This document shows positions 2,431-30,209 of a stretch of DNA of 64,000 bases, in pieces. Below the pieces are notes generated by a model. That model was not told where the DNA came from and ran no database searches. It saw only the letters and a program-made list of their open reading frames with translations. A program made the translations under genes and the position numbers. The stretch's first letter is position 1. Each line of letters starts with the position of its first letter. Origin of the DNA: Kibdelosporangium philippinense (lineage in GTDB: Bacteria > Actinomycetota > Actinomycetes > Mycobacteriales > Pseudonocardiaceae); assembly GCF_021390435.2 (NCBI RefSeq), contig NZ_JAJVCN010000003.1, forward strand, positions 1-64,000. The letters run 5' to 3'.

Positions 2431-2505
2431 CTAGGGCTGCTGTCGTGGCCGCCAGGATCATCACAGCCGATGGGGACGTTTCGTCCACCACGAATCCTCC
2501 GGCTA
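2431..2505 (-). pseudogene. internal fragment of the disrupted MFS transporter gene
   Basis: This 75-bp island between the two ISs translates on the minus strand, from the TA at 2505-2504, as a hydrophobic stretch starting LAGGFVVDETSPSAVMILAA and ending in ..TTAAL. That is a typical last transmembrane helix of a 12-helix MFS protein. It fuses in frame with residue 346 of the main fragment (3688-4725) when the IS630 element is deleted, and with 653-709 when the IS1380 element is deleted. Confidence 0.85.
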
Positions 2506-2525
2506 CAGATCTTGAAAGGCCAGGA

Positions 2526-3131
2526 TTACGGCGGTTGTGGTTCGAGGTTCAGTCTGGTGTGGGCGAAGAACGCGTCGATCAGCCCGGGTCGGTACTGGAT
2601 GCGTTTGAGTCGGTTCTTCACGATGGCGGTGAGCTGGTCGATGCCGTGCACGATGAGGTTTCCGAGGTTGCGTTTGACGTGGGACCACACGTGCTCGGTC
2701 GGGTTGAGGTCCGGGGCGTAGGGCGGGAGTTGGATCACGTGTAGCCAGTCGCGGGCCGCGACCAGTTTGCGCATCGCGTGACTGGTGTGCGTGTTGAGGT
2801 TGTCCCAGATCAACACGATCGGGGCGCCGAGCTGCTGGTGTGCGGCGTCCAGCAGGGCGGCGTAGTCGGTTTCGGCGAAGCTGCGCCGTTCCCCCTTGCG
2901 GCCGCGGTGGGTCCGGACACGGTAGATCAACCGGGGCCGGTGTCCGGGCCGGACGCATACCAGCCCGGCGACCGATACCCGGCCCGAACCCTTGCCCGAC
3001 ACCGGGATCTGTGGTGTCTGGCCCCGGCGGCCCCAGGTGCGGGCTTTCGGCGGGCGCAGCGTTTGCCCGGCCTCGTCCTCGAAACACAGCCAAGCACCTT
3101 GCTGCGCCGCTACCGTTTTCCCGCCGGCCAT
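2526..3131 (-). CDS. IS630-family transposase, second frame (DDE catalytic half)
   Basis: This frame carries the DDE catalytic core: CFEDEAGQ (first Asp), VLIWDNLNTHTS (second Asp) and PPYAPDLNPTEHVWSHVKR (final Glu), all IS630 hallmarks. It lies -1 relative to the upstream frame (3110-3601), and the two overlap by 22 bp. The full protein is probably made by -1 slippage at the heptamer G GGA AAA (minus strand of 3116-3122). Its own ATG at 3131 lies inside the overlap and could also give an independent product. Confidence 0.85.
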   Translation of the reverse strand: MAGGKTVAAQQGAWLCFEDEAGQTLRPPKARTWGRRGQTPQIPVSGKGSGRVSVAGLVCVRPGHRPRLIYRVRTHRGRKGERRSFAETDYAALLDAAHQQLGAPIVLIWDNLNTHTSHAMRKLVAARDWLHVIQLPPYAPDLNPTEHVWSHVKRNLGNLIVHGIDQLTAIVKNRLKRIQYRPGLIDAFFAHTRLNLEPQPP

Positions 3132-3601
3132 ACCTCCCGCCGCCAGGTGGCGATCGCCTGCTCGTCGCGCTCGATCGCGCGGTGGGCGGGTACTTGTGGC
3201 GAGAACCCCATGCGGTGCAGCAGATACGACACCCCGCGCAGCGTGTAGCGGGTGTGAAACAGCCGGGCGATCAGATCGGCGACCCGAGCCAGGGTCCAGC
3301 GCTGATCCTCGCCGAACCCATGCACGGCTGGGCCTTGTTCCACAGCCTGGGCCAGCCTGTCCAGTCGTGGCTGGTCCAGCCGGCAGGACGATCCGCCCGG
3401 TCCCTTCGACGCCAGCCCTGCCTCACCCTCGGCACGCCATCGACGCCGCCAGGTATAGACCGCGTTGGTGGATACCCGCAGTCTGCGGGCGATCTCGGCG
3501 GCCGGCACGTCCTGGGCGAACCATTGGGCCGCCTGCAACCGGACAGCTTCGCGTGTGGCCCTGCCCCGCTCGGAAAGGCCACCTCCATCCGCGTACCTCA
3601 T
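3110..3601 (-). CDS. IS630-family transposase, first frame (DNA-binding half)
   Basis: 163 aa with a helix-turn-helix (AAEIARRLRVSTNAVYTWRRRW, about residues 34-55) that binds the element ends, followed by a second winged-helix-like part (VADLIARLFHTRYTLRGVSYLL). The frame ends at GCG GGA AAA CGG TAG; slipping back one base on G GGA AAA enters the frame of the catalytic half. A two-frame layout joined by slippage is known for several IS630 members. Confidence 0.85.
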   Translation of the reverse strand: MRYADGGGLSERGRATREAVRLQAAQWFAQDVPAAEIARRLRVSTNAVYTWRRRWRAEGEAGLASKGPGGSSCRLDQPRLDRLAQAVEQGPAVHGFGEDQRWTLARVADLIARLFHTRYTLRGVSYLLHRMGFSPQVPAHRAIERDEQAIATWRREVWPAGKR

Positions 3602-3687
3602 CCATCCCTGCGTAGATCATGAATCGATCAGGATCCGGGAGGACACGCCGCCCAAGGACAAGATCAACCCTGGCCTTTCATGATCTG

Positions 3688-4725
3688 TAATGCGCCGATA
3701 CCGATCGTCGCTTGGAATGATCCTGTGAACAGGACCGAGGCTGCCTCTGGTGCTTCGGGCGCGGACTTGGCGAACCATGTTTGTGAGCAGACTGGGACTG
3801 CGCCGTACGCCACGCCCCAGATCATCAGCAGGGCCGCCGCTCCTATGTCCCAGGAACCTAATGCTGGCAGCAGTATTGTTGCTCCGGCGATCATTGCTGT
3901 GCTGGTGGTGAATGTTGGTCGTAGCCGGTGCGCGATCATTGCTCCCGCTGCGAAGTTGCCGATGACGCCTGCGGCGCCGTATGCCAGTAGGAGGAGTGTG
4001 ATCATGCCTGCGTCTACCTGCGTCACTTGTTCGAGGAATGGACGGACGTAGGTGTAGGCACCAAAGTGGGCTAGGACAACGAGAAACGTCACCGACAGTG
4101 CTGTCCGGCTGCTTCCGAGTGCACCGCGTAGGACGCTGAGGCGGGTGACGTCGACTGGCGGTAGGGGCGGCAGGGCCACCATCAGGGCGACGAACACTCC
4201 GCCTGACAACACCGCCATGACAACGAATGCTGTCCTCCACCCCGTGAAGTCTCCGATGAACGTTCCCATTGGCACACCCAGTACAGAACCCAGTGGGACG
4301 GCGGCGAAGATCACCGAGGTGGCTCTGGGGACCGCTTCTGGTGGGACCAACCGGGCTGCTAGGCCTGCGCCGATTGACCAGAAACCGCCGATGGTGATTC
4401 CGACCAGCACTCGGGAGATCACCACGACCCAGTACGCCGGTGCCGCTGCCGCGAGGATGTTCGCCAGTGTCAGTAGGAGTACCAAGGCGCACAGCATCTT
4501 TCGGCGGTCTACCGCAGCTGTGGATACCGTGACCAGTGGTGCTGACACCGCCGCCAGGAGGCCGGGCATGGTCATTGTCAGGCCCGCTGTTCCTTCTGTA
4601 ATGGAGAAGTCTGCTGCTATTGAGGTCAGGAGACAGATGGGGAGTATTTCTGTTGTGACTATCGTGAAGATTCCTGTCATCACCGCAAGGACCGCGAACA
4701 CGCCATCTACTCCATCAGTCCACAT
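3688..4725 (-). pseudogene. MFS efflux transporter, truncated by IS630 insertion
   Basis: A 12-helix major facilitator (arabinose-efflux/drug-resistance type) whose sequence follows the family up to residue 346, with the cytoplasmic basic loop after helix 2 (VDRRKMLC) and the GVPMGTFIGDFTGWR motif. The transposon joins at a TTA leucine codon, and translation now ends after eight IS-encoded codons at 3664. Helix 12 and the tail lie in fragments 2431-2505 and 653-709. The reconstructed gene is 387 codons, a normal family length. Start ATG at 4725, weak ribosome site, 60 bp from the divergent NACHT gene. The residual protein could in principle be made but lacks the last helix. Confidence 0.88.
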
Positions 4726-4785: not shown

Positions 4786-7700
4786 ATGACCGATGTGTTG
4801 CGCTTGGCTCAGAGTCTCATCAAGCCTGTTGCTCAGGCTGTTATCTCTGATCGGCGGCAACGGGCTCATCGGTCGCTTTCGCTTTCCGAGCTTGTCAATG
4901 TCACCGTTCTCGATGACTTCAAGCGTCGTCGGTTGACGCGTGAGATTGAGGCTATGTGCGACTCCGTTGCTGAACGGTTGGAGGCGTTCTCGACAGGTGA
5001 ATGGCGCGGGCTTGAGGATGCCGAGCGGGCGTTGGCTGTTGAGGGGGTTGTTGCGGCTTTTGCGGCGGCTGATCTCTCTGATGACGCCTTCTTCACGGTG
5101 GACGCTGATCCTGCGAAACTCAACCGGCTTCTACAGAAGAAGATGGGCAGGCCTCCTCTGCTGAGTGAGGCTGGGTTGGCTTTGTACAACCGGCTGCTTG
5201 CGGAGAGCTGCACTATTTACGTGCAGGTCGCCATTCATCTTGCGTCGTTCACTCCGCGTGGGGTTTCCGAATCGCTCACACGCATGTCTGAGTTGCGGCA
5301 ACAGGTTGATCAGGTGATTGCGCGGCTACCTATGCGATCGCTTGACGCTCCGGCGGGCACTGATCAGGATGATGAGTTTGTTCAGCGGTACCTGAAGTAC
5401 GTCATCAGCACGTTCGATCACGTTGAGCTCTTCGGGGTTCATACTCGCAACTTTCGGCCACAGACTGCGTTGAGCGTCGCGTATGTCAGCTTGACTGTCG
5501 CCGTCGACAACCGTCATGAGGGTGAAAATCTTCCTGAGACCAGCACTGTGCGGGTTGAGCAGGCGCTTGCTGGGGCTGATCGGACGTTGCTCACTGGCGA
5601 GGCTGGGTCCGGCAAGACCACGTTGATGCAGTGGCTGGCTATCACCGCTGCTCGCGGGCGGTTTGAGGCTGATCTTGCGAGGTGGAACGGGCTGGTTCCG
5701 TTCTTTGTCAGGCTTCGCGGTTATACGGGTAGCAGGATGCCGAATCCTGAGCAGTTCTTGGACAACTGTCCGTTCGGCTCGCTCATGCCGCCAGGTTGGG
5801 TGCATCGGGTGCTCACCGACGGGCAGGCTTTGCTGCTTGTCGACGGCGTGGATGAACTACCTGTGGCAGAACGCAACAGCGTTCGTTCTTGGTTACGGAC
5901 TTTGCTGCAGACGTATCCGCAGAACAAGGTTGTGGTGACGGCGCGTCCAGGGGCCGCCGCGCCTGCTTGGCTTCAGCATGAGGGGTTTGCTCCTGCCGCA
6001 CTGGAACGGATGAGTCCGCGGGATGTTCGCGAGTTGATCGCCTACTGGCACAAGGCCATTCGGAAGGCTGGGCATCTGCCGTGCGCGGAGAATGAACTTC
6101 CTGGTTACGAGCGGGCTCTCGTGGCGAAGCTGGAAACCAGCGCGCCGCTGCAGACACTCGCGACGAACCCGCTTCTCTGCTCACTGCTCTGCGCCCTCAA
6201 CCTTGATCAGCACACCGCGCTTCCACCTGACCGGATGGGTATTTACGCCGCCACGCTGGACATGTTGCTCGAACGTCGGGACATTGAGCGGCGCATCGCC
6301 AGCGATGTCTCGCTCACCATCCGGAACAAGCTTCATCTGTTGCAGTACTTGGCTTGGCGGCTGTCTTTGAACAATCGGACCGAACTTACGAAGCAGGACG
6401 CCGTTCAGCGGATCACTGAACGGCTTGCGACCATGTCGATTCCGGTTGAGCAGGCTGGGTCTGTTGTGGACCATCTCGTGCAACGCAGTGGTGTGCTCAG
6501 GGAACCGGCTGTTGATCGGATCGACTTTGTTCACAGGAGCTTTCAGGAGTACCTGACCGCCAGCGAAGCTGCCGAGCATGGTGATGTCGGGCTGTTGATC
6601 GATCGCGCGCATCTGGATGCGTGGCGGGAAACCGTGATTCTCGCGGCTGGTCATGCCAACAAGCCCACGCGGCACGAGTTGCTGTCCGGCTTACTTGACC
6701 GCGCCGACGCGGAACCTCGGAATGCTCGTACGCTCAGGCTGCTCGCTGCCGCGTGCCTGGAGACGTCTGGTCCGCTCGATGTGGATCTGCGTTGGCGCAT
6801 TGACGAGTGTCTGGCCAAGTTGGTTCCGCCCAAGCGATTCGCTGAGGCTCAGTCGCTCGCTTCGATCGGTCAGCCGTTGCTGAACCACTTGCCCGGCAGC
6901 ATCTCCGGGATGACCAAGGCTCAGGCGAAGGCGCTGTTCGAGACGGTCGCGTTGATCGGCGGAGAACAGGCCCTTGACCTGTTGTCGACGTACGCCCGCT
7001 CTGCTCCGGGCGATCTGGAGCGGTTCTTGCTGGACAAATGCAGGTATTTCGATCCTGCCGCGTTTGGCGATCAGGTCGTTGTCCATCTCAGGGAATTCCT
7101 CGATGTGCCGTTCATCCTCGATGCCGCTCAGCTGGAAGCGTCTCGGCGGGTCGCGCTTGCCAAGATCGAGTATCTGGCTCTGCAAGGCGTGGCCGATTTG
7201 GCCATGCTTTCGGGGTCTGCCGCCGATCGACAACTTGTGGCTGTCAGGAAATCTGTCCGATCTGAGCCCGCTGGCACGACACGCGAAACTGACCAGCCTT
7301 GCCGTGTGGTCGGCGACCGCACTGACCGGGCTTGGGGTACTGGCCGAACTCCCCGCATTGACCATGCTGACCCTCGGCAGCAGCGGGTTCGAGGACATCG
7401 AGTTCGTTCGCTCAGCGCCCGGACTCACCTCGCTGCGGCTGCACGATCTGGATGCCGTCACGGACTTCAGCCCGCTGCGGACTCTGACAAGACTCAACCA
7501 CCTCAGCATCGAAACTCCGAAAACGCTGACCTCATTCGAGTCAGTGCGGAACATTCCCACCTTGCTTCGGCTGACCCTTCGCGGGCATACGTCGCCACCT
7601 GGCGGTCTGCCTCAACTGGCAGCCGAGCTACCGCGCCTCATCACACTGAACCTTTTCGAAGCTGACTGGCTGACCGACCTTGAGCCCATCGGACGTTTCG

Positions 7701-7993
7701 AGCACCTGGACCGGCTGACCTTGCGGTCTGGCCGCCTATCGAGCATCGCTGCCGTTGAGCAGGTCCCCAACCTGCAGTTTTTTGACCTTGACTGCCCTCA
7801 GGTGGACGACATCTCGGTCATCGGCAAGCTCACGAAACTGAAAACCCTGTACCTCCGGGAGCCTGCGGCCAGGGTCGATCCCGTTGCGCTGTCAATGAAG
7901 GACACCACCGTGCATGTTCCGGACCGGCCGACCGCGCAGCGGTGGCGGCGGGTGCCCGGTCAGGCCGCGAAGATCAAGGTGATCGACGACTAG
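4786..7993 (+). pseudogene. bacterial NACHT-LRR (NLR-like STAND NTPase), split by a one-base shift
   Basis: An N-terminal helical region (about residues 1-200) precedes a NACHT module with Walker A TGEAGSGKTTLMQW (about 269-282) and Walker B ALLLVDGVDELP (about 347-358), then the FVHRSFQEYLTA motif typical of NACHT C-terminal helices. The first frame stays family-like to residue 809 (7212), then turns to nonsense and ends at 7665. The next frame continues at once as leucine-rich repeats (GLPPIDNLWLSGNLSDLSPL ...) to 7993. The switch lies in the GGGG run 7212-7215; removing one G gives a 1068-aa protein. NACHT STAND proteins in bacteria are known anti-phage sensors whose C-terminal repeats recognise the trigger. 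Either a real inactivating mutation, a phase-variable tract or a sequencing error. Confidence 0.85.
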
Positions 7994-8013: not shown

Positions 8014-8802
8014 ATGATCCTTGATCGGTTTCGGGTTGACGGACTCGTCGCTGTGGTGACCGGGGCCGGGCGGGGAATCGGGGCCGCTACCGCCGTCGCA
8101 CTGGCCGAGGCCGGGGCTGATGTAGTCATCTCGTCGCGCACCGCCGAGCAGCTCAAAGACGTCGCCCAACGAGTCGAAGCCGCTGGCAGGCGGGCCAAGG
8201 TCGTCGAGGCTGACCTGAGCGACCTTGATGCCGTCACGCAGTTGGCAACGGCCGCGAACGAGGAGTTCGGGCGGCTCGACATCGTCGTCAACAATGTCGG
8301 CGGGTCGATGCCAGGTCCGTTCATGCGGACCTCGCCCAAAGCCTTGAAGGACGCGTTCCATTTCAATGTGGCGACCGCGCACGCGTTGAACCTCGCAGCC
8401 GTTCCGATCATGCTGGCGAACGACGGCGGGTCGATCGTGAACATCTCGTCGGCCATGGCACGGTTGACTGGCCGGGGTTTCATCGCTTACGGCACCGCCA
8501 AGGCCGCGCTTTCGCACTACACCAGGCTTGCCGCCACGGACCTTTCGCCGAAGATCAGGGTCAATGGGATCTGCGTTGGGTCCGTTGCCACGTCGGCGCT
8601 GGATATCGTGCTGCAGAACCAGGAAATCAAGTCCAAGATGGAACAGGCCACCCCGTTGAAGGTCATCGGGGAGCCCGCGGACATCGCGGCGTCCGTGCTC
8701 TATCTGGTGAGTGGCACAGGGAAGTTCGTGACCGGCAAAGTGCTCGAAGTGGACGGTGGCATCGAGCGGCCGACGCTCGATCTCGGCTTGGAGGATCTGT
8801 GA
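8014..8802 (+). CDS. SDR-family oxidoreductase
   Basis: 262-aa classical short-chain dehydrogenase/reductase, NAD(P)-dependent. It shows the cofactor motif TGAGRGIG (about residues 18-25), the NNVG motif, catalytic Ser in NISSAMA, the Y-x-x-x-K pair in AYGTAKAAL, and a C-terminal [15 protein letters not shown] 8014 is chosen because family homology starts there and a -10 box lies 7 nt upstream. The stop overlaps the GTG of the next gene (GTGA), so the two are translationally coupled. With the KstR-like site this suggests a lipid or sterol catabolic reductase; the substrate cannot be read from the sequence. Confidence 0.85.
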
Positions 8803-10710: not shown

Positions 10711-11826
10711 TCAGTCCTTCTTTGGCTCCGAGGCCTCGGACTCGTCCTTCTCGTCGTCCTTGGCTTCCGGTGCCGCCGGGACCTTCGCGGTCTCTTCGTC
10801 CTTGGCCTCGTCGTCCTTCTCCGAGGCGTCCGAGGCGTCTGCGGCGTCAGAGCCCGAGGGATCCTTCTTGTCCGCGGCGTCCTTGTCGTCGGAGTCCTCG
10901 TCCACAGCGTCGTCGGAGGCTTCGATCGGGGACGGGTCCTGTGGCGTGCCGTCGCCGCGCAACAACGCTAGGTCTTCGCGTTCGCCCTTGCTGCGGGCCA
11001 GGATGAAGTACACGACCGCGCCGATGAACACCAGGATCGAGACCCAGACGTTGATCCGGACGCCGAACACGAGCGTGGCGTCGTCCGTCCGCATCAGCTC
11101 GATCCATGTCCGGCCAAGGGTGTAACCGGCGACGTACAAGGCGAACGCGCGGCCGTGGCCGAGGCGCATCTTTTTGTCGACGTACACGACCAGCAGCGCG
11201 ACACCGAGGTTCCAGAGCAGCTCGTAGAGGAACGTCGGGTGCACGACGGCGATCGGTGTGTGGTCCACCGCGATGCCCGAGAGCTGGTCGGCGATGCCGG
11301 TCTCCGGGTTCACCCGCTGGTAGATCTCCAGGCCCCACGGCAGGGTCGTCGGACCGCCGTAGAGCTCCTGGTTGAAGTAGTTGCCGATCCGGCCGATCGC
11401 CTGCGCGACCACGATGCCGGGCGCGACCGCGTCGGCGAACACCGGCAGCGGGATGCCCTTGCGCTTGCAGCCGAGCCAGGCGCCGACGGCACCGAGCGCG
11501 ATCGCGCCCCAGATGCCGAGGCCGCCGTTCCAGATGTACAGCGCTTCGATCGGGTTCTTGCCCTCGCCGAAGTACCGGTGGTAGTCGGTGATCACGTGGT
11601 ACAACCGGCCACCGATCAGGCCGAACGGCACCGCGTACACCGCGATGTCGACCACTTCACCGGGGCGCCCGCCCCTGGCCTGCAGGCATTTCTCGCCCCA
11701 CCAGATCGCCACGATGATTCCGATGATGATGAACAGCGCGTACGCGCGGATCGGGATCGGGCCGATTTCCCACACGCCCCGGTCGGGGCTGGGGATGTTC
11801 GCCAGGAAGACTGTCGCTCCGGTCAC
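10711..11826 (-). CDS. lgt: prolipoprotein diacylglyceryl transferase
   Basis: Transfers diacylglycerol from phosphatidylglycerol to the lipobox cysteine of prolipoproteins, in the cytoplasmic membrane. The signature GRIGNYFNQELYGG (about residues 145-158) and a seven-helix layout are clear. Enzyme homology ends near residue 285; the remaining ~85 residues are a low-complexity tail dominated by Asp, Glu, Ala and Lys, predicted to be disordered and cytosolic. Long acidic tails occur on some actinobacterial Lgt proteins. It follows trpA by 62 bp on the same strand, as in mycobacteria. Confidence 0.95.
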   Translation of the reverse strand: MTGATVFLANIPSPDRGVWEIGPIPIRAYALFIIIGIIVAIWWGEKCLQARGGRPGEVVDIAVYAVPFGLIGGRLYHVITDYHRYFGEGKNPIEALYIWNGGLGIWGAIALGAVGAWLGCKRKGIPLPVFADAVAPGIVVAQAIGRIGNYFNQELYGGPTTLPWGLEIYQRVNPETGIADQLSGIAVDHTPIAVVHPTFLYELLWNLGVALLVVYVDKKMRLGHGRAFALYVAGYTLGRTWIELMRTDDATLVFGVRINVWVSILVFIGAVVYFILARSKGEREDLALLRGDGTPQDPSPIEASDDAVDEDSDDKDAADKKDPSGSDAADASDASEKDDEAKDEETAKVPAAPEAKDDEKDESEASEPKKD

Positions 11827-11887
11827 GAGGGCACACGTTAACGCCTTGCCTCACCCGGCCCGCATACCACCCTGCCGACTGGTTCGG

Positions 11888-12688
11888 TTAACCGGCCTGA
11901 CCTGCGACGACGCGTGAACGCACACCTTGCGCCAATTCGCCTGCCAACGTACGAACCTCGTCGGTGCCCGAGGCGGCCTTGGCCACGAACGCCGAGCCCA
12001 CGATCACCGCGTCGGCGTACGCCGCGATCTCCGCCGCCTGCGCGCCGGAGCGGACACCGAGACCCACACCGATCGGCAAGTCCGTGTGTACGCGGACGCG
12101 CTCAACCAGGTCCGGCGCAGCGTTGCTGACCGAGTCACGGGCGCCTGTCACGCCCATGACCGATGCGGCGTAGAGGAACCCGCTCGTCTTGGCGACCGTA
12201 CGGACGATCCGTTCCTCCGTGGACGCGGGCGCGACCAGGAAGATCCGGTCAAGGCCGTGGGCCTCGGACGCGGCGATCCACTCGTCGGCCTCGTCGACGA
12301 TCAGGTCCGGCGTGATGATGCCGAGTCCACCGGCCGCTGCGAGGTCACGGGCGAACGCGTCGACGCCGTAGCGGTACACCGGGTTCCAGTACGACATGAC
12401 CACGGCGTGGCCACCGGCCGCCGAGACGCGCTCGACGACCGAGAAGATGTCCTTCACGCGGAATCCGCCGCGCAGCGCCTCTTCGGCGGCGTGCTGGATC
12501 GTCGGGCCGTCGATCACCGGGTCGGAGAACGGCAGGCCCACCTCGACGATGTCGCAGCCGGATTCGATCATGGCCGTGAGCAGGTCGGCCGAGCCGTCCA
12601 CAGTGGGATACCCGGCGGGCAGGTAGCCGACGAGCGCGGCCCGGTTCTCCGCACGAGTGGCCGCGAAGAGCGTGTCCAAGCGACCCAT
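11888..12688 (-). CDS. trpA: tryptophan synthase alpha subunit
   Basis: 266 aa. Cleaves indole-3-glycerol phosphate to indole and glyceraldehyde 3-phosphate, and works in an alpha2-beta2 complex with TrpB. The substrate motif VEVGLPFSDPVIDGPTIQ contains the catalytic Glu, and the second catalytic acid is in the FSDP region. The ATG overlaps the trpB stop (ATGA), as expected for stoichiometric co-translation. Normal length; last trp gene of the block before lgt. Confidence 0.96.
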   Translation of the reverse strand: MGRLDTLFAATRAENRAALVGYLPAGYPTVDGSADLLTAMIESGCDIVEVGLPFSDPVIDGPTIQHAAEEALRGGFRVKDIFSVVERVSAAGGHAVVMSYWNPVYRYGVDAFARDLAAAGGLGIITPDLIVDEADEWIAASEAHGLDRIFLVAPASTEERIVRTVAKTSGFLYAASVMGVTGARDSVSNAAPDLVERVRVHTDLPIGVGLGVRSGAQAAEIAAYADAVIVGSAFVAKAASGTDEVRTLAGELAQGVRSRVVAGQAG

Positions 12689-13920
12689 CAGGAGTCCTTC
12701 CCCACAAGGCCGAAGTACTTGGCCGCGGTGTCCATGTCCTTGTCGCCCCGGCCGGACAGGCTGACCAGGATCACGCCGTCCGGCCCCAGCTCCTTGCCCA
12801 GCTTGAGGGCACCGGCCAGAGCGTGCGACGACTCGATCGCCGGGATGATGCCCTCGGTGCGCGACAGCAGCTGGAACGCGTCCATCGCCTCCGCGTCGGT
12901 CACCGGGTAGAACTCGGCGCGGCCGGAGTCCTTGAGGAACGAGTGCTCCGGGCCGACGCCCGGGTAGTCGAGGCCTGCGGAGATCGAGTACGCCTCGGTG
13001 ATCTGGCCGTCCTCGTCCTGCAGCAGGTACGACCGCGAGCCGTGCAGCAGGCCTGGGCTGCCCTCGGACAGCGTGGCGCCGTGTTCACCGGACTCGACGC
13101 CGTGCCCACCCGGCTCAAGGCCGACCAGACGGACGTCCTTGTCGTCGATGAAGCCGTGGAAGATGCCGATCGCGTTGGACCCACCGCCGACACACGCGGC
13201 GACGGCGTCGGGCAGCCGCCCGGCCTTCTCCAGCATCTGCGCGCGGGCCTCGATGCCGATGACCCGGTGGAAGTTACGCACCATCAGCGGGAACGGGTGC
13301 GAGGCCGCGGCCGTGCCGAGCAGGTAGTGCGTGGTCTCCACATTGGTGACCCAGTCGCGCAGCGCCTCGTTGATGGCGTCCTTCAACGTCCGCGAGCCGG
13401 TCGTGACCGGGATGACCTCGGCGCCGAGCAGCCGCATCCTGGCGACGTTCAGCGCCTGGCGCTCGGTGTCGACCTCGCCCATGTAGACCACGCAGTCGAG
13501 GTCGAGCAGGGCGCACGCGGTGGCCGTTGCCACGCCGTGCTGACCGGCCCCGGTCTCGGCGATGACCCGCTTCTTGCCCATCCGCTTGGTGAGCAGCGCC
13601 TGGCCAAGCACGTTGTTGATCTTGTGAGAGCCGGTGTGGTTGAGGTCTTCGCGCTTGAGCCAGATCTGCGCGCCACCGGCGTGCTCGGCGAAGCGCGGCG
13701 CCTCGGTCAGCATCGACGGACGGCCCGCGTAGTCACGCAGCAGGCGCAGCAGCTCGTTGACGAAGTCGGGGTCGAGCCGAGCCTTGTCGTACTCGGCCGC
13801 CAGCTCTTCCAGTGCCGGGACCAGGGCTTCCGGGATGAACCGGCCGCCGAAGGCCCCGAAGTAACCGCGCTCGTCCGGGTCGTGCGAGTCGTGCTCGTGC
13901 CCGGTCTTCTCATCGCTCAT
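12688..13920 (-). CDS. trpB: tryptophan synthase beta subunit
   Basis: 410 aa PLP enzyme joining indole and serine to form tryptophan. The PLP lysine lies in HTGSHKINN, and the phosphate-binding [10 protein letters not shown] is present. I choose ATG 13920 (start [11 protein letters not shown]) because it overlaps the trpC stop as ATGA; an in-frame ATG six codons upstream (13938) is possible. The N-terminal extension is rich in His and Asp, typical of actinobacterial TrpB. Coupled by overlap to trpC and trpA. Confidence 0.95.
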
Positions 13921-14726
13921 CGGGACGGCCTCGGGCATGCGGGGTGCGAACCGGCGGTGACCAGCTTGGTCAGCGCCGCCTTGGGATCGCCGCTGGCCAC
14001 AAGTCCCTCGCCGACCAGGATCGCGTCGGCACCGGCACCGGCGTACGCCATCAGGTCGCCGGGACCGCGGACACCGGACTCGGCGATCTTGATCGTCTCG
14101 AACGGCAACCCCGGGGCTATCCGGGTGAAGACCTCACGGTCGACCTCGAGCGTGTGCAGGTTGCGGGCGTTCACGCCGATCACCGACGCACCGGCCTCAA
14201 GGGCACGGTCGGCTTCCTCGGCCGAGTGCACCTCGACAAGGGCCGTCATCCCGAGCGACTCGACCCGGTCGAGCAGACCAACCAACGTGTTCTGCTCCAA
14301 CGCGGCCACGATCAGCAGCACGAGGTCCGCGCCATGCAGCCGCGCCTCGTGCACCTGGTACGGGCTGACTACGAAGTCCTTGCGCAGCAACGGAACACTC
14401 ACCGCAGCGCGGACCGCGTCGAAGTCAGCCAGCGATCCCCCGAAGCGCCGCTGCTCGGTCAGCACGCTGATCACCCGCGCGCCGGCCTCTTCGTAGTCCT
14501 TCGCCAGCACAGCCGGATCCGGGATGTCAGCCAGGTCACCCTTGGACGGACTGCGCCGCTTGACCTCCGCGATCACACCGACATCCGTGGAGCGCAGCGC
14601 GCTTCGCGCGTCCTTGGCCGGCGGCACCTTCGCCGCCTGCTCCTTGAGGACTTCGAATGGAAGCCTTGCTTCGCGGGCCGCGAGATCCTCGCGCACACCG
14701 TCGATTATCGACTCGAGAACGCTCAC
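13917..14726 (-). CDS. trpC: indole-3-glycerol phosphate synthase
   Basis: 269 aa TIM barrel closing the indole ring of tryptophan. The motif [13 protein letters not shown] (catalytic Lys) and the loop [17 protein letters not shown] are diagnostic. Start is GTG 14726 with AAGGGG just upstream; longer in-frame extension beyond it lacks homology. About 114 bp separate it from the upstream membrane gene and show no obvious attenuator. As in mycobacteria there is no trpF here: PriA (24349-25080) is expected to supply that step. Confidence 0.95.
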
Positions 14727-14840
14727 GCGTTTGCCCCTTCCCGCCGCACTGATGCTAACCCCGCGCCATTTCGCGGCAGGACGCCGGGTCGGCCGTGCAC
14801 AGTAAGCATGCGCCTGGCGACGCAACGATTGCGCGACGGG

Positions 14841-15341
14841 TCATACGGTCGGGTCCTTTCCCTCGGACAGGGCGTTCCAGAGCTCTTTCTCGCCTTCCGG
14901 CTCCTTCTCGGCGCCGGGGCGGTCGTACTTCGCACCAAGCCTTGGCATCTTGTGGCCGTAACGCACAAGCAGCACCCCGGCGACGACGACCGCGAGCCCG
15001 GCGAGCAACGCCACGCCACGGCCCCACAACACTTGTCCGGCCGCGAAGGCGCCGTTGGCAGCGAGCCAACAAGCCGTGAAACCGGTCAGCGCCAACAACA
15101 CCCCGACGATCCGGCGGGGCAGTCCGCTGGTCGCCAGCACACCGGCGATTCCGGCCAAGTAGATCAGCGCCAACGGGATCAAGGCGCTCACCTGTTCGGA
15201 ACCTGTCAGTTCAGCGGACCAATTCAGCCGCGACGAACCCCACAGCCCGGCTGAGGCGGCCAGCAGCAGGACCACCACGATCCATAGTGGACGCCGCTCG
15301 GCCATCGGATCCCGCGCAGCCATGGGACCTTGCTCAGCCAT
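14841..15341 (-). CDS. trp-operon-associated membrane protein (TIGR02234 type)
   Basis: 166 aa with four predicted membrane helices ([74 protein letters not shown]) and a charged cytoplasmic tail. It matches the conserved hypothetical membrane protein family found between trpE and trpC in actinobacteria. Function unknown. Start ATG 15341 overlaps the end of trpE by 8 bp; further upstream in-frame ATG codons lie within trpE. Confidence 0.8.
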
Positions 15342-16878
15342 CGGATGCCGACCTGATCGTCTCGGCCATGGCGATCGCGGCAAGCACCGCGCCAGCCTTG
15401 TTCTGGCACTCGTCGTCCTCGGCGCCAGGGTTCGAGTCGGCCACGATTCCCGCGCCAGCCTGCACGTACGCCACGCCTGCCTGCATCAACGCGGTCCGGA
15501 TGGCGATCGCGGTGTCCGCGTTGCCCGCGAAGTCGAGGTAGCCGACCACGCCGCCGTACAGGCCTCGCCTTGTCGGTTCGAGCTCCTCGATCAGCTCCAT
15601 CGCACGGGGTTTCGGCGCACCGGACAGCGTTCCGGCGGGGAAACACGCCGTCACGGCGTCGAAAGCGGTCTTTCCCTCGGCGAGCTTGCCGGTGACCGTC
15701 GACACGATGTGCATCACGTGGCTGTAGCGCTCGACCCGGAAGAAGTCGACGACGTGCACGGATCCGGGCTCGCAGACCCGGCCGAGGTCGTTGCGGCCGA
15801 GGTCGACGAGCATCACGTGCTCGGCGCGTTCCTTCTCGTCGGACAGCAGGTCCTTTTCCAGGATGGCGTCTTCGTCCGCGTCCACACCACGCCAGCGGGT
15901 ACCGGCGATCGGGTGCGTGGTCGCGATCCCGTCCCTGACCGTGACCAGGGATTCGGGGCTGGACCCGACGATGTCGAAGCCGTCCAGCCGCAGCAGGTAC
16001 ATGTACGGGCTCGGGTTGGTGGTCCGCAGGATTCGGTACACGTCCAGCGCGTCGGCCTGCGTCTGCATCTCGAACCGTTGGGACACCACGATCTGGAAGG
16101 CCTCACCGGCCCGGATCGCTTCCTTGGCCGTCTCGACCGCGGCACCGAACTCAGCACGGCTGCGACGGCGGGTGAACTGCGGTTTGGGCCGCTCGAACAC
16201 CATCGCGGTCGGCGGTGCCGTCGTCCACAGGTCCTCGGTCATCCTGCCGAGCCGTGCGACCGCGTCGTTGTACGCCTCGTCCACCCGCTCCGGGGTGTTG
16301 TCCCAGTTCACGGCGTTGGCGATGAGCGTGATCGTGCCTTCGTGGTGGTCGAGAGCGGCCAGGTCGGTCGCCATCATCATCACCAGCTCGGGGATCCCGA
16401 GGTCGTCTTCGGCCAGCTCAGGTAGTCGTTCAAGGCGCCGGACGGTGTCGTAGCCGATGTAGCCGACCATTCCGCCGGTCAGCGGCGGCAGGCCAGGCAG
16501 CGGCTCGGTGTGCAGCAGCCGGAACGTCTCCCGCAGGGCCTCAAGCGGGTCGCCGTTGCCGTGCAGGTCGTCCGGCACCTTGCCGGACCACGTGGCCTTG
16601 CCGTCCTTGGAGGTCAGCGACGCGGCACAGCGGGCGCCGACGAAGGACCATCGTGACCAGGACCGGCCGTTCTCCGCCGACTCGAACAGGAAGGTCCCGG
16701 TCCGGTCGCCGGCGAGCTTGCGGTAGACGCCGACGGGGGTCTCGGCGTCCGCGAGCAGCTTGCGGGTGACCGGGATCACCCTGCGTTCGCGGGCGAGAGC
16801 GTGGAACTCCTCACGGGTGGGGCTGATCGCGCCCATCCCGGTGTGCACGGGCAGGTCGGATCCGATCACGCTGGCCAT
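15334..16878 (-). CDS. trpE: anthranilate synthase component I
   Basis: 514 aa from ATG 16878. Converts chorismate plus ammonia (from the glutaminase subunit, not in this window) to anthranilate. Key motifs: [17 protein letters not shown], the feedback-binding and chorismate region [42 protein letters not shown]. Alternative starts are ATG 16836 ([11 protein letters not shown], closest to mycobacterial TrpE) and ATG 16908. First gene of the trp block, divergent from a TetR gene. The upstream spacer shows no Trp-rich leader peptide. Confidence 0.94.
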
Positions 16879-17001
16879 GCCGGCCATTCTGCCGGGACAC
16901 CACGACAACGCACGACCGGGTTGAGCGGCAGGTTAAAGTACCCAGTCGGACAAAATTCACCGCATGTTGAAAAGTTCGCCGTGGCGAGTGATGATGGTGA
17001 C

Positions 17002-29157: not shown

Positions 29158-30209
29158 TCAGCTGAGGACGACTGGGAGCTCCTTCAGGCGGCTGCCGCCT
29201 ATGCCGCCGAACACGATCTGCTCGAGCTCCTCGTACGGCATGGCGAGGCGTGCGGATGGGAAGTCGCGGGCCAGGACCGTTTGCACTGCGCGGAGTTCGG
29301 CTTGGGCTAGTTGGGCGCCGATGCAGAAGTGTGGACCTGCGCCGAAGGTCAGGCCTAAACCGCCGATATCCACGAGTACCGGTGCGCGTTCGGGGAGCTC
29401 AACACCGGCGAGCTCCAGTGGTTCTGTAGTGAAGCGCCAGAGGCTGAGGGGTGCAGGTGGGTTGTGCCGTAACGTCTCTTCTACCGGGTCGTCTGCCGAT
29501 GTTCCGAGGGTGCGGGCAATGAGGAAGCCTAGTGCAGCGTCCGTTGTTACTTGGCTGGCGAAGATCAGGCCGAATAGGTGGTAGCGGATTTCTTCCTCTG
29601 GTGTCTCCGGTGGGAGGCGCTGCCTGAGTTCCGCTGCCAAGCCTCCTTCTCGGCCGGTTGCCGCGATGTCCATCAGTGTTTGGGTTGCGTCGGGTTGGTC
29701 TCCGGTGAGCATTTGCCTGCAGGCTTCCATCGCTTTGTCCACGTTTCCGGTGGGATCGCCATCATGTCCAGCAGGACCGTTAGGGGGTAGCGGGTTGTGA
29801 AGTCTGCCATCAGGTCTACGACGCCTGAATAGGACGAGAGTACGTCACGGGCGAGCTCTTCGATTCTGGCTTGCTGGTCACGGATTCGTTTGCCGGTAAG
29901 CAAAGGGGCTTGCGCTCGGCGCAGCGCCGTGTGCGCTGGTCCGTCCATTGTGGTCAGTGAGGGGCGCTGGGTGGCCGTTGGTTCCAGGCCCGCTCTCACC
30001 GGGTCCCAGTTCAGCGGCGCCATCGCTGGGTCTTTCACTATTCGCGGATCGGACAGGACCTGTTTGGCCAGGTCAGCGTCGGTCACGAGCCAGACGTTCC
30101 CGCCCGCTGGCGCGGCTGCGACGACCACGGGGCCCGCTTCGCGCAGGGCGGCTGGGACCAGGTTGGGCTCGGTCATGTTTCGCACTGTTGAGGCAAAGGG
30201 ATCGAACAT
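29158..30209 (-). pseudogene. cytochrome P450, frameshifted and internally deleted
   Basis: The 5' frame (30209 to about 29753) carries the N-terminal P450 part (WLVTDADLAKQVLSDPRIVK, the C-helix-like DGPAHTALRRAQAPLLTG). Near 29752-29755 a C run on the minus strand appears one base short, and the protein continues in another frame (GNVDKAMEACRQML) to 29158. That half has the ETLR (ExxR) motif and the heme loop LTFGAGPHFCIGAQLAQAEL. About 20 residues normally between the K-helix strand (APVLVDIGG) and the heme loop, including the NRDP/meander segment, are missing. Two independent lesions make this a true pseudogene. Divergent from marR. Confidence 0.85.

Follow-up and report, generated by a model that had tools for sequence, protein, structure and literature searches.

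A single-base frame change where the leucine-rich repeats begin probably marks the recent inactivation of an NNH1-NACHT-LRR receptor gene in Kibdelosporangium philippinense

The start of contig 5 of the 12.05-Mb genome of Kibdelosporangium philippinense (64,000 nucleotides, here called the window) carries a gene in which a NACHT NTPase and a leucine-rich repeat (LRR) sensor are encoded in two different reading frames, raising the question of whether these parts belong to a native split arrangement, a switchable receptor or a receptor gene that has been broken. The NACHT-encoding ORF extends from 4786 to 7665 on the plus strand (959 aa) and overlaps an ORF at 6974-7993 in the next frame, with the one-base change of frame located at a GGGG run (7212-7215, plus strand). 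Frame 0 yields an NNH1-NACHT-helical region of 809 codons up to the break (4786-7212, plus strand; protein ending ...LAMLS), while the other frame, read from 7214, starts with GLPPIDNLWLSG and continues for 259 residues to a stop codon at 7991-7993. Removal of a single G joins the 809 and 259 residues into a product of 1068 residues, exactly as an earlier note on this DNA had calculated.

The same note had named the gene an NLR-like NACHT-LRR gene, a description that domain searches bear out. NNH1 (PF22733, NACHT N-terminal helical domain 1), a putative effector or adaptor, covers 4795-5322 on the plus strand (residues 4-179, Pfam E 1.7e-40) and scores 139.5 bits against a curated cut-off of 27. 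It is followed by the NACHT NTPase domain (PF05729; 5581-6054, plus strand; residues 266-423, E 1.3e-22), an order that places the gene in the NNH1-NACHT family. The NACHT domain contains GEAGSGKTT and LLLVDGVDE, which we take to be its Walker A and Walker B motifs; the key G, K and D motif residues are invariant across an alignment of 51 homologues and are all present here, leaving the nucleotide-binding motifs intact. The LRR sensor domain (LRR_4, E 1.2e-12) occupies the other frame (7214-7993, plus strand) and is 55-56% identical to the corresponding part of the orthologues L039 and L040.

Relatives within the genus speak directly to the native layout. A same-genus search covered seven genomes besides the source genome, and four of these harbor close orthologues (78, 78, 74 and 69% identity), all of them uninterrupted single ORFs of 1075-1083 aa from ATG; the best matches in the remaining three reach 33, 34 and 44% identity. 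For the frame-0 part, identity is 79, 78 and 74% to three intact orthologues and 69-78% to the four. The LRRs share an ORF with NACHT in 4/4 close orthologues and are one base out of frame in the window. Aligned to the orthologues, the gene follows frame 0 to about residue 817 and the other frame thereafter, all within one unbroken orthologous ORF, and conversely an intact orthologue used as query returns two abutting window matches in two frames, which upholds the earlier view that the frame is broken between NTPase and sensor. Because the orthologues carry both parts in one uninterrupted ORF, the frame change is, on this comparison, a lesion rather than the native layout. The 150 codons and stop that complete the 959-aa ORF (7213-7665, plus strand) have no in-frame homology: frame-0 homology to the orthologues runs out at residue 806-817, beyond which the only matches are to stop-containing frames of G005, G004 and G039. 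Wrong frames entered by an insertion at 76% of the length stay open for at least 148 codons in 18 of the 51 intact homologues, so that the open tail, judged from these sequences, is without meaning.

By record, the gene relatives are Kibdelosporangium aridum DSM 43828 (G005), Rhodococcus rhodnii NRRL B-16535 (G004) and Actinosynnema sp. ALI-1.44 (G003). The species names of the latter two records, whose loci are L040 and L041, look misassigned on sequence grounds, since both group in the genus of the window and are syntenic with it.

The surroundings of the gene are shared with these relatives. It is followed by an SDR-family dehydrogenase gene (Pfam; 8014-8802, plus strand), the first syntenic downstream neighbor and 92% identical to the L040 copy, then by a further gene that gives no Pfam match at the strict limit and is presumably dehydrogenase-like, and then by lgt, trpA, trpB, trpC and trpE (Pfam; 10711-16908, minus strand; 87-90% nucleotide identity to relatives). 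This downstream neighborhood of SDR, lgt and trp genes is common to the three orthologues with flanks read, and collinearity begins at about 4.7 kb, continuing over most of the window for K. aridum and over the sequence compared for G004 and a third relative. A search of family and defence-system databases, as the earlier note had advised, recovered the NACHT family PF05729 for the gene itself and gave no PADLOC match better than E 0.016; among nine neighbors, 0/9 matched PADLOC at E 0.001. The NNH1-NACHT part was without a match among 50,697 phage records; 72 of the 72,556 plasmid records contained matches to it, at less than 60% identity. Given the lack of PADLOC matches among the nine neighbors, the lgt/trp synteny and the absence of a phage-record match, our reading of the sequence is of a chromosomal, vertically kept setting and not a defence island; neither known defence genes nor a mobile setting were found nearby, although insertion sequences lie upstream. 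The earlier note had seen in these insertion sequences the sign of a defence-type accessory locus. That interpretation is at odds with the synteny and the PADLOC result, and also with the nature of the IS630-type element upstream of the NACHT gene (2504-3689, 24-nt inverted repeats), which the genome carries in 14 near-identical copies, which is probably recently active and which appears to lie in a gene for an MFS transporter. The transporter gene (2357-2503 and 3690-4725) is apparently split by the element, and its likely 3' part is open beyond the insertion. The transposase of the element lies in two frames on the minus strand (3110-3601 and 2526-3131), and a DDE transposase gene is also present upstream. 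The contig itself starts with a 22-base tandem repeat of 9.8 copies (1-215).

How old the break might be was assessed from the remainder of the gene. Apart from the single frame change, both halves are open and the C-terminal end resembles those of the orthologues; a second lesion in the window gene was looked for and none was seen. Excess amino-acid change in its LRR was tested by dN to two outgroups, and none was seen there either: dN to L041 was 0.526, against 0.522 and 0.515 for intact copies, and dN to L012 was 0.518, against 0.509 and 0.516. A single lesion together with an LRR dN equal to that of intact copies points to a very recent break, or to an error, and indeed both features are equally expected if only the consensus is wrong.

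An assembly or base-calling error, in which the gene is intact and the consensus miscounts the bases of the G run, therefore has to be weighed alongside a true lesion. The break falls at a homopolymer in a gene otherwise free of lesions, with its LRR half under unchanged constraint. However, the run is only four bases long and is in itself unremarkable, as mononucleotide runs of at least four number 16 in the gene and 336 across the window. Error rates nearby were gauged by a frame-break scan that took ORFs of at least 150 aa whose best match reached 70% identity or more, and that can detect a break only if a second match of at least 20 residues is left behind. It compared 161 K. aridum genes (173,820 aligned coding bases) with the first 264 kb of the contig. 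Seven of the 161 genes were flagged, and two interior breaks remained after inspection; the other five were dropped by eye with the break upstream of the likely start (trpC and four genes that we take to be aminotransferase-like, ACT-like, truB and DHH-like). The reverse scan flagged 1 of 154 before inspection, and a scan of the window only gave one more split, in an ORF judged non-coding. In addition, 13 further IS630 copies (15,418 bases) are equal in length to the window copy and differ from it by 1-5 substitutions, with no indel. With 2/161 interior breaks and no indel in 13 IS copies, consensus quality looks good. The other interior break lies near 29745 in a presumably cytochrome P450-like gene (29164-30209) whose orthologues in K. 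aridum and G004 are unbroken, and its location, like that of the NACHT gene, within the first 31 kb of the contig adds to the case for error. The suggestion of assembly error made in the earlier note is thus disfavored by the scan and the IS copies, yet we retain it as a minor possibility of some weight.

The same GGGG run had suggested phase variation, whereby slippage would toggle the receptor on and off. The homopolymer does sit exactly at the frame change, but it comprises four G only among the 16 comparable runs of the gene, and no G run is present at the aligned site of the K. aridum orthologue. The long unstable simple repeat that marks the switch point of a phase-variable gene is not found here, and we consider such switching extremely unlikely.

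To place the break in a wider context, we turned to NNH1 genes at large. NNH1 was present in 45 of 150 genomes sampled in the bacterial family and 34 of 394 in the class, with 0/14 in controls. A set of 61 loci with NNH1 of at least 100 bits, the window included, was assembled; Pfam matched both NNH1 and NACHT in 47/47 scanned homologues and LRR_4 in 16/47. Counting LRR-like motifs by a simple pattern is weak per locus (in 26 of 51 loci the observed count is equalled or exceeded by 5 or more of 100 shuffles), which is why C-terminal tails were instead compared with a profile of the other tails, with the result that 51/51 intact homologues match and 0/51 shuffled tails do. Genes judged intact, with NACHT and tail in one ORF, account for 51 of the 61 loci. 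The earlier note had held that homologues ending naturally after the helical domain, with a separate LRR gene, would undermine its account, and the profile-matching tails of the 51 intact homologues contradict that arrangement. One locus, L154 (an 840-aa ORF with one LRR-like motif), was left uncalled and could be a natural LRR-less member.

The remaining nine loci (window, L102, L122, L123, L124, L144, L148, L150 and L151) are broken, by lesions at differing places that include frame shifts of one base or two, an in-frame stop and internal deletions. Because these lesions differ in type and place, the sequences speak for independent decay of family copies. The broken fraction exceeds that of the syntenic background (9/61 against 2/161, Fisher P 1.9e-4), in a comparison where the family genes have about threefold the length and were drawn from many assemblies, and where the per-base excess is about fourfold and weak.

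The family also bears on two readings in which the window gene would still work. In the first, NNH1-NACHT and LRR proteins would be made separately and act together, as might be suspected from the two open parts and from the LRR-like stretch that follows the NACHT half in another frame in 4/61 loci (window, L122, L124 and L148). Against this, the parts are fused in 51/61 loci, the lesions vary in size and place, and L124 carries more than one break, making a split working system highly unlikely. In the second, programmed +1 frameshifting would restore the full receptor from a downstream frame that is open and constrained, but the four close orthologues need no such event, the other broken copies break elsewhere and otherwise, and in place of a conserved slippery site with a two-frame layout we found no shared slippery site and a single frame through the LRR in 51/61 loci; we regard this reading as scarcely credible. 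Breaks seemed to cluster at the NACHT-LRR junction (in the window, in L122 and L148, and in L124 with its multiple breaks), but this was set aside, as lesion size and context differ and the count is post hoc, and no mechanism is claimed for it.

Four intact orthologues, three of them syntenic, a single lesion with no other found, a good consensus and independent breaks elsewhere in the family together favor a real and recent inactivation, the interpretation that also fares best among those offered by the earlier note. We consider it probable that this is an NNH1-NACHT-LRR receptor gene of the bNACHT kind with a conserved chromosomal location across the Kibdelosporangium group, and that a shift of one base where the LRR begins has recently inactivated it here. 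NNH1-NACHT-LRR is a known architecture, and the window gene is an ordinary member, broken.

The consequences of the break can be envisaged from a structure predicted for the intact orthologue L040 with a four-row alignment. The model has a mean pLDDT of 52.5 and is usable in the LRR part only, so NNH1 and NACHT were left uninterpreted. L040 residues ~800-1075 are predicted to form an alternating strand-helix, LRR-like array (pLDDT mostly 74-91), and the window break would map to the first repeats of this array, near L040 residue 817. In the best 60 of 272 matches to PDB sequences, the best stretch falls in the LRR region. The predicted L040 array is of the kind seen in SDS22- and internalin-type LRR folds, a likeness of general LRR fold that is silent on function. 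NACHT proteins are described in the excerpted text of PMC12169576 as connecting infection detection to an antimicrobial response. By analogy, the LRR of intact copies may sense an infection cue, upon which the resting NACHT module would become active and oligomeric and the NNH1 helical domain would execute or recruit a response that disables the cell. With its frame broken, the window copy would yield a receptor that lacks its sensor, a product that is most likely non-functional.

Bacterial NLR and NLR-related (bNACHT) proteins were reportedly characterized by Kibby et al. in 2023. These proteins have a central NACHT, as do the intact orthologues of the window gene with their LRRs in one ORF, whereas the window copy is frame-broken. 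Likewise, the NACHT proteins of actinomycetes with Pfam NNH1 (PF22733) share NNH1 and NACHT with the window gene, whose LRR lies in the other frame. The protective bNACHT02, 12, 25 and 32 carry SNaCT or NCH1 C-terminal domains in the excerpt of PMC12169576, unlike the LRR of the window family, and that excerpt makes no mention of NNH1-NACHT-LRR. Along the NACHT helical region there is a weak match to the EruA NACHT antiphage protein (NCBIfam NF058535), a match rejected as evidence of membership, its 25.5 bits being far under the cut-off of 1000 bits. An anti-phage function for the gene may be carried over, by analogy, from the bacterial NLR class.

Across the family, the two halves of the gene evolve at different rates, with amino-acid change about fivefold faster in the LRR than in the NTPase half. 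LRR dN exceeded N-part dN in 25 of 26 pairs with at least 75% N-part identity (median ratio 5.0) and, in a second set of 23 orthologues from genus g89, which we infer to be Streptomyces, in all 24 pairs that reach 80% identity (median 4.6), the pairs sharing sequences and hence not being independent. Under GY+F3X4, maximum-likelihood dN/dS in the group of the window was 0.068 (N-part) and 0.231 (LRR), and in another group 0.050 and 0.406. Four pairs of one group, compared by a simple NG86 count at concave-face positions, gave dN/dS of 2.99 (CI 1.60-7.97), 1.44, 2.05 and 0.73, the interval lying above 1 in the first pair alone; two pairs from the group of the window gave 0.25 and 0.50. For the concave positions of the former group, maximum likelihood returned 0.36 (GY+F3X4), 0.79 (MG+F3X4), 1.02 (F1X4) and 1.63 (equal frequencies). 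The claim of dN/dS above 1 on the LRR was dropped, as GY+F3X4 and MG+F3X4 are the two models with better likelihood; we attribute the discrepancy with NG86 to GC-rich third positions. Plain residue differences in the window's group were about as frequent at concave positions as in the rest of the LRR, or moderately more so. What can safely be said from these sequences is that the LRR appears to be a fast-changing sensor, with positive selection possible only. Rapidly evolving LRRs are remarked on qualitatively for another bacterial NTPase family in the excerpt of PMC8195603, and among the matches listed in our literature search none concerned NNH1-NACHT-LRR proteins or selection on bacterial NLR LRRs.

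Taken more broadly, and tentatively, NNH1-NACHT-LRR may represent a large actinomycete immune-receptor family with a slow NTPase half and a several-fold faster sensor, whose copies are repeatedly disabled by independent mutations, the window copy having just been inactivated. Copies of plant NLR genes are likewise repeatedly switched off. Orthologues that combine conserved NTPase halves with fast LRRs make it testable whether bacterial LRR sensors set phage specificity, with the natural broken copies serving as ready-made nulls. The group of L111, L112, L113 and L115 suits a proper selection test; in this group dS is similar along the gene and dN climbs steeply at the NACHT-LRR border.
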